This document shows, one piece after another, positions 4,445 through 7,400 of a stretch of 64,000 nucleotides of DNA (position 1 is its first letter; each line of letters opens with the position of its first letter). The position numbers and the translations under genes are program-made. Below the pieces are notes generated by a model. The model saw nothing but the letters and a program-made list of their open reading frames with translations, was not told where the DNA came from and made no database searches. The DNA comes from Microbotryomycetes sp. JL201 (taxonomy: Eukaryota; Basidiomycota; Microbotryomycetes), in contig JAQYUZ010000013.1 of assembly GCA_033819885.1 (NCBI GenBank), positions 186,001 through 250,000 of the forward strand, read 5' to 3'.

Positions 4445-7400
4445 ATGTCTTACGGTGGATACGGTGAGTGCCTCTCCCCTGGCGCGTGTTGTGCACGGCC
4501 CCCGCGCTCGCTTCAGTTTCGGTTTTTTCAAAACGCAAACAGCAAGCGCGCCATGGCGCCAGCGCAAGCGATACCACTTGCACTGATGCTGTTGGATTGA
4601 GTGACATCTGCTGCCTGCACGCCCACATTATCTGCTACAGCTCTGCAGGCTTGCTGACTCGCGGCCGGCTCTCGTTTGTTTAGGCGGATCGTCTGGCGGC
4701 TACGGTGGCGGCGGTGGCGGCTACGGTGGCGGAGGAGGATATGGCGGAGGCGGAGGATACGGTGGTGGCGGTTACGGTGGCGGCGGATACGGTGGCGGCG
4801 GAGGTGGATACGGCGGCGACAGAAGTGAGCTCCCCCGCGACCTATAACGTCACTTGCCCAAAGAAGCTGACTGACATCCTGCGTGCTTGACATTAGTGGG
4901 CGCACTTGGCGCCAACCTCAAACAACAGAACTGGGACTTGTCCACTTTGACAAAATTCGAGAAGAATTTCTACGAGTGAGCAACAGAGCCCGGTGGCGTT
5001 TGCCGCGGACCGAGTTCGGGCAGCTTTGTCGCGTGAGCTGACTCGCGACGGCTTTCGTTCTAGAGAGGACAAGCGTGTTGCAAGTCGATCCGAATCCGAG
5101 GTTACAGAGTTCCGGCGCCAGAAAGAAATCCAAGTCTTTGGATCGCGCATCCCCAAGCCCGTCACCAACTTTGACGAGGTCAGTCCCCGTGCCGTTGGGC
5201 GCACGATATGTTCTTCGCTGACTATGGACAACCCGAATAGATGAACTTTCCTTCATATATCCAGGACGAGATCAAGCGTGCCGGTTTCCAGGCACCGTCG
5301 CCCATCCAGATGCAGGCCTGGCCTATGGCGCTATCTGGACGCGATCTTGTCGCCATCTCTGCCACCGGCTCAGGCAAGACCATCTCATTCGCGTTGCCTG
5401 CTATGATTCACATCAACGCTCAGCCTTTGCTCGCCCCCGGAGACGGCCCGATCGTTCTCATTTTGGCTCCTACGCGTGAGCTCGCCGTTCAAATCCAGCA
5501 AGAGTGCACCAAGTTCGGCGCGTCGTCTCGCATTCGCAACACTTGCGTCTATGGTGGTGTACCAAAAGGTGGTCAAATTCGCGACCTGCAGCGCGGTTCC
5601 GAGATTGTCATCGCCACGCCCGGTCGTTTGATCGACATGCTCGAAGCTGGCAAGACCAACTTGCGCCGCGTCACCTACCTCGTCCTCGACGAGGCCGATC
5701 GCATGCTCGACATGGGTTTCGAGCCTCAAATCCAGAAGATCATCGATCAAATCCGCCCTGACCGTCAAACACTCATGTTCTCGGCCACCTGGCCAAAGGA
5801 GGTCCAGAAGCTCGCACACACTTATTTGAAGGATTTCATCCAAGTCACGATTGGCTCGCTTGAGCTCTCGGCCAATTTGAACATTACCCAGATCGTTGAG
5901 GTTTGCTCAGACTTTGAGAAGCGCGGAAAGTGCGTGCAGTGACTCAGAGGTTTTATTATAGGCATTCAGACGGCTGACTCAATAATGTCCACAGGCTTGT
6001 CAAGGCTCTTGAGAAGATCTCCTCCGAGGCTGCCAAGGTCCTCATCTTCGTTGCCACCAAGCGCGTTGCTGACGATCTCACTAAGGTAAGTGCCATATCT
6101 GAGCTCCTGCTGTGCTGCGTCATTGACTCCTGCTGGCTACAGTATTTGAGGCAAGATGGTTGGCCAGCACTCGCCATTCACGGTGACAAGCAGCAACAGG
6201 AGCGCGACTGGGTTCTCGGCGAATTCAAGAGTGGCCGATCTCCCATCATGATTGCTACTGACGTTGCATCTCGTGGTCTTGGTTCGTTTCTCCTTTCCTT
6301 GTTTCAACCCCTTTCCCCTGCCTCCTTCCTCCACCTCTCTCTTCCCCCGCGCTTCCCTTCTCTCGGCGTCCTCTCGCTGTCTCTGAGACAGCCCAGGGAG
6401 CAAGAACATCTGCCTCGTACGAGATTCGCGCACAAGCACACGAGCAATAGCAGCTCGAGACGGTGGACTGGTCACGCAACGATTTTCGCATGGGGAACAG
6501 CGACAACGCAGTGAAAGGGTGACTGGGCTTTGACGGCTATTGTCAATAGCACGTGGTCGCAGCACGTGGTCGGATCCCGACGTGAAGAGGACCTCGCGAT
6601 GGCATGCGGACTGGCTTCTCCCCGTCAGCTTGTTCTGCCTCCGACTCCTGGGTCCCTCGGCTCGTCAAGTTTCGACGATAGTGTGACACTCTACGTCCAC
6701 TTGACGTGCACCATGTCACCTTCGATACGTTCTGCACCCTCGCCCGCAGCGTCCCCTCGTTGTCAACGCGTGACTAGCGGCTACTGAATGTCTCGGTCGA
6801 CATGCAAGGAACTTAACGGTATAGGCTTTGCGGCTTCTATTCGTTTCCTTTTCGTGTCCTGCCCGTCGTTGCCTTTGGGGCTCGACTGGAGCGCTCAACT
6901 GCCAGTTGACTTCGGCCTCTCGCCGGCGTCACACAGGGATTGCAGTTACTCGAGTTATTTCTCGACGTAATCGCGCACCCGTCGCTTGCCCGCCTGTCGG
7001 GCGCGGCTGCAACCACATGTGCTTTCTCGTTTCGTTTCTCGAGGTTCGATCTAGTTTCTTGTTTGCCGCATGCGCGCGTATGCGTGCGCCTGTCTCGCTG
7101 CGTTCGCGGCTCGAGGGAGATGGCGACGGGTCTCGTGCTTCCTGGCCATCGTTTCGTGAGTTGCTAACGTTATTTGTGGCTTGCGCCTGTAGATGTCAAG
7201 GACATTGGCTATGTCATCAACTATGACAGTGAGTGTTTCGCACAAGGCGAGGCTAGTTGTTCATGTCACTGACGCAGAGCTCGCCGCAGTGCCTAATGGT
7301 ATTGAGGATTACATTCACCGCATCGGTCGCACAGGTCGCGCTGGTGCCAAGGGTACCGCGTACTCGTACATCACGACCGAGCAAAGTAGTGAGCCGATTT

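Follow-up and report, generated by a model that had tools for sequence, protein, structure and literature searches.

Analysis of the DBP2/p68 (DDX5-type) DEAD-box helicase gene in a 64-kb window (the whole stretch of DNA that was analysed, 64,000 nucleotides from the basidiomycete Microbotryomycetes sp. JL201) identifies its seventh intron, most probably, as the conserved DBP2 intron already known and as such as a new case of an established arrangement, given that the residue it splits aligns with Asp425 of yeast Dbp2 and that L014, a distant p68 gene, carries an intron in the same phase at that codon. In the reading that we consider the most likely, intron 7 is an ancestral, position-conserved long intron of DBP2/DDX5 genes and probably acts as a brake on the expression of its own gene; this reading draws on the Asp425 alignment, the L014 intron, the short neighbouring introns, the stop codon encountered on retention and published reports on DBP2 and DDX5 introns (PMC4695336; PMC8668116). 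The coordinates of the features are given in Table 1.

Table 1. Features of the DBP2/p68 gene in the window (window positions) and of the L014 locus (positions on its own contig).
Feature	Position	Strand	Details
DBP2/p68 (DDX5-type) DEAD-box helicase gene	4445..7693	+	10 exons, 547 aa; spliced translation, PDB match, Pfam
Exon 7	6143..6281	+	ends in motif V (ATDVASRGL and first base of Asp425)
Intron 7	6282..7192	+	911 nt, phase 1, GT...AG; branch-point-like GCTAAC at 7163-7168
Most pyrimidine-rich 90-nt stretch of the 64-kb window, either strand	6289..6378	+	87.8% (next 82.2%); begins 7 nt into intron 7
First in-frame stop on retention of intron 7	6512..6514	+	501-aa truncated product
Exon 8	7193..7228	+	36 nt, 12 residues; spliced translation
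Intron 8	7229..7289	+	61 nt, 3' of the retention stop; spliced translation
Intron 9	7386..7454	+	69 nt (66 nt in the ab initio model); spliced translation, ab initio model
L014 p68 gene	contig JAIYDP010000354.1 (C183 of G001), long intron 5746-6029		labelled Verrucomicrobiaceae MAG

Gene structure and length of intron 7

The gene structure was assembled by hand, nine introns being placed by their GT-AG borders and by protein continuity, and the resulting protein is glycine-rich at both ends and contains the Pfam domains DEAD and Helicase_C. Its best PDB match is yeast Dbp2 (E 5.6e-185, 617.5 bits), followed among solved structures by human DDX17 (E 7.8e-164, 548 bits), while the next DEAD-box protein scores 367.7 bits; the domains present, together with matches to Dbp2 and DDX17 that lie above those to other DEAD-box proteins, assign the protein to the DBP2/DDX5 (p68) group.

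Intron 7 is bordered by TTG/GTTCGT at 6282 and by ...GCTAAC...CTGTAG/ATG ending at 7192, and splits codon 425 after its first base (RGL/D), within helicase motif V. Among donors at 6241-6330 and acceptors ending at 7150-7229, 6282/7192 is the sole GT-AG pair that restores the 15-residue sequence expected at the junction, and both the yeast Dbp2 and the human DDX17 proteins align across this junction with no gap. Hand splicing, the GT-AG pair test and the gapless alignment thus bear out the preliminary description, which had placed a 911-nt intron inside motif V of DBP2 with a 36-nt exon after it.

A home-made two-strand ab initio gene model with a flat long-intron tail, which predicted 15 genes with 129 introns in the window, also chose one single 911-nt intron in DBP2. 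The splice-site models were trained without the 911-nt intron, and the first training set held the spliced DBP2 coding sequence together with its eight remaining introns, which makes the result supportive and non-independent; because the model was seeded with DBP2 itself, the gapless yeast and human alignment is the stronger evidence for intron 7.

Regarding intron length, the other eight introns of DBP2 measure 57-220 nt, and the earlier remark that introns in this DNA are mostly short holds for the window as a whole, where 120 of the 129 modelled introns are no longer than 130 nt; against the median of 60 nt, the 911 nt of intron 7 are much longer. Seven of the modelled introns exceed 200 nt, two of them in DBP2 (220 and 911 nt), and the remaining five are predictions of 336, 431, 527, 995 and 1128 nt.

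These five long predicted introns outside DBP2 are located at 8748-9875, 14396-14731, 29408-29838, 30364-30890 and 32227-33221 (- strand). At least the predicted 995- and 1128-nt introns look like fusions of neighbouring genes; in the proteins as read by eye, the former connects an F-box-like to a kinase-like part and the latter adds an odd tail to a kinesin. The predicted neighbours between 8639 and 63199, likewise read by eye, presumably include the kinesin, a Sec1/VPS45-like protein, PEP carboxykinase, two long coiled-coil proteins (one of them TPR/Mlp-like), a cyclin B-like protein, Rad50, a MYST-type acetyltransferase and an arrestin-like protein.

The corresponding codon in yeast DBP2 and in a distant p68 gene

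In the protein alignment, the Asp at the intron 7 split corresponds to Asp425 of the 546-residue S. cerevisiae Dbp2 chain. Exon 1 of the yeast gene presumably has 1273 nt and its intron 1002 nt, so that the yeast intron would interrupt codon 425 behind its first base, in the same phase as intron 7.

A further p68 gene was obtained from a scan of prokaryote genome contigs, in which the best 80 of 511 relatives were kept; among the matches listed the p68 pattern was present in one of 93 loci, L014, and others may exist. The phylum search detected the pattern in one of 387 genomes, on the same contig as L014, and 13 loci on viral contigs matched query A1 (best identity 62% over at least 50 residues), and the p68 pattern itself had no match on viral contigs. 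The contig, JAIYDP010000354.1, is part of a 9.4 Mb bacterial bin and carries a p68 gene with spliceosomal introns and an RS-rich N-terminus. It is most likely a mis-binned eukaryotic contig, because the L014 gene has spliceosomal introns under the label of a Verrucomicrobiaceae MAG.

The L014 gene has a phase 1 intron of 284 nt at the same codon as intron 7 (RGL/D), so that the window gene shares both codon and phase of the intron with another p68 gene. This is the longest of the six introns resolved in L014, the five others measuring 117, 39, 43, 40 and 38 nt, a count from which a candidate last intron at 6280-6309 was left out since it breaks the frame. The same intron is again the length outlier in a distant eukaryote, which argues against an accident of one lineage. 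The two introns are alike in codon and phase, in being the longest of the resolved introns of their gene and in being poor in A, whereas the L014 gene differs in the smaller size of its intron, in the lack of an outstanding pyrimidine tract within it and in its RS-rich N-terminus. A standard comparison of the two intron sequences gave nothing below E 1.3. The permissive comparison, run without the low-complexity filter, returned a 45-nt match of 69% (E 0.002), which pairs pyrimidine-rich parts at non-corresponding places and is not counted as conservation.

Predicted effect of intron 7 retention and alternatives to the proposed brake

On retention of intron 7, translation would meet a stop at 6512, 77 codons into the intron and short of both motif VI and the C-terminus, with introns 8 and 9 located 3' of it; the predicted product is truncated, as is looked for in autoregulated splicing. 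Because the stop precedes motif VI and introns 8 and 9 are downstream of it, the retained form would be useless as a helicase and is probably a substrate for decay, plausibly through NMD. In the proposed mechanism, splicing of the long intron 7 would be slow or incomplete to begin with and may be lowered further by a bound factor, either Dbp2 protein, as is reported for S. cerevisiae, or a different one; the retained form, with a stop so early in the intron and before both motif VI and two splice junctions, would be degraded. By analogy, Dbp2 feedback on intron 7 is likely in this species. The preliminary description had taken the length of the intron to suggest autoregulation; this suggestion gains from the position at the residue aligned with yeast Asp425 (where the yeast gene is presumably split as well) and from the codon and phase of the L014 intron, and the autoregulation itself is what we infer. 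Should the brake operate in this fungus too, the length of a single intron at a single codon would have been maintained to give an RNA helicase its feedback, in contrast to the other, mostly short introns of the genome, and an ancient origin of helicase splicing feedback would become testable in an intron-rich fungus in which the short neighbouring introns provide built-in controls.

We regard as unlikely, though by no means negligible, the alternative that the intron position is old while the length is neutral or driven by drift, the intron being spliced normally and regulating nothing in this species. Such a history is consistent with splice signals inside the normal range and with searches for a conserved block, a structure or a known RNA family that gave nothing convincing. 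At 4.05, the score of the 5' splice site GTTCGT is below the median of 5.57; 24 of the 129 modelled introns score lower still, and the same hexamer is present at five of the 129, intron 7 included; the site is only mildly weak and was rejected as a strong cause of retention. Among the 120 short introns, 48 have a weaker 3' site than intron 7, whose 3' site is therefore average, and the branch point is good and ordinary. A neutral length is, however, at odds with the observation that both L014 and the window gene have their longest intron at this site, in the latter case in a window where 120 of 129 modelled introns do not exceed 130 nt.

It is quite improbable that intron 7 is long as the host of a structured non-coding RNA or snoRNA, a nested gene, an internal promoter or a poison exon. 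The tracts of fungal core promoters are CT-rich, and the very pyrimidine-rich tract of 60-90 nt at 6289-6378 resembles them, which speaks for a hosted element, whereas the L014 intron is without an outstanding tract. The intron 7 tract ranks first in the window at 60 nt as well, is tied at 30 nt and loses the first place at 150 and at 250 nt; a tract common to both introns was rejected, 34 separate stretches of the L014 contig exceeding the best 90 nt of the L014 intron. Also against a hosted element, Rfam gave no match at the gathering score anywhere in the window, two sub-threshold matches in 6200-7300 (bacterial P10 and a viral stem-loop) being dismissed as implausible, and no tRNA was detected. 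Regarding a nested gene, 15 of the 16 overlapping ORFs of at least 50 aa lack a Pfam match at E 0.1 and the sixteenth matches Helicase_C via its exon part only, while a poison exon is disfavoured by the best cryptic internal exon being equalled by 80 of 200 shuffles. Origin from a repeat or transposon was rejected, as only short repeats were found and matches elsewhere in the window were limited to 14-19 nt at E 0.59. The preliminary description had further proposed folding the intron, and here the outcome was unexceptional (z -1.26): its fold is equalled or bettered by 2 of 20 shuffles and by 35 of 200 stretches of 911 nt drawn at random from the window, and a special RNA structure was rejected. 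The fold of the L014 intron is equalled or bettered by 19 of 400 random stretches.

Regarding base composition, intron 7 has an A content of 14.9% against a mean of 22.9%, with 0.5% of all 911-nt stretches as low, and the L014 intron one of 12.7% against 23.4%, with 0.8% of 284-nt stretches as low, so that each is strongly depleted in A with respect to its own contig. Because four bases were examined in two introns after the fact, the A-depletion is a lead only; it and the pyrimidine tract are compositional leads with a putative function. It is very doubtful that the long DBP2 introns carry a compositional signature (A-depletion, joined here by a CU-rich tract after the 5' splice site) that is selected across eukaryotes as a platform for helicase dose-sensing; if true, this signature would be a sequence-light feedback element invisible to alignment. 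The prospect that intron 7 is divided by a hidden coding exon missed earlier is negligible, nothing having been found in its favour and both the gapless yeast Dbp2 and human DDX17 alignments and the one intron picked by the gene model standing against it.

Comparison with DBP2 and DDX5 introns of other organisms

The gene of the window, with nine introns and with a 36-nt exon and two introns downstream of intron 7, is unlike S. cerevisiae DBP2, which we take to have one intron only. The yeast intron, presumably placed at the aligned residue Asp425 and in the same phase, is similar to intron 7 in length, exon 1 and intron of the yeast gene each being given as about 1 kb in passages of PMC2752994. 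Regarding regulation, DBP2 is listed among the genes autoregulated through splicing inhibition in a passage of PMC12311795, and retention of the S. cerevisiae DBP2 intron is described as relieved by a helicase-dead mutant in a passage of a further paper (PMC4695336, citing Barta and Iggo 1995).

For S. pombe, passages of the latter paper report that intron 2 of dbp2 has its position and length conserved in S. cerevisiae as well as in higher eukaryotes, that it is poorly spliced and that it decreases the spliced mRNA via Mmi1 and the exosome (PMC4695336). Intron 7 is comparable to this intron, for which the paper describes a position and length conserved with other species, in that its retention would likewise truncate the helicase. 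The two differ in that the S. pombe intron is bound by Mmi1 and promotes decay in the account of these passages (PMC4695336), whereas the 911 nt of intron 7 contain no site of the S. pombe-type motif TNAAAC, which sets it apart from Mmi1-type decay-promoting introns; recruitment of the Mmi1 type through this motif is not supported.

In a literature search, no report of this intron in basidiomycetes was found among the matches listed, and passages of a survey of Ustilago maydis helicases make no mention of the DBP2 intron. The conservation of DBP2 intron position and length is already published, as passages of PMC4695336 make clear; the earlier proposal of the same control in a basidiomycete is fairly drawn, but its element of conserved position and length is already in print. 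The conserved intron is also ascribed to DDX5 in this source (PMC4695336). For HEK293 cells, a passage of PMC8668116 gives the retention of DDX5 intron 11 as 8%, increasing to 12% after 24 h of 4-thiouridine. Human DDX5 intron 11 is, we infer, the conserved DBP2 intron, and it provides a comparison in which the intron of an orthologous gene has measurable retention (PMC8668116).
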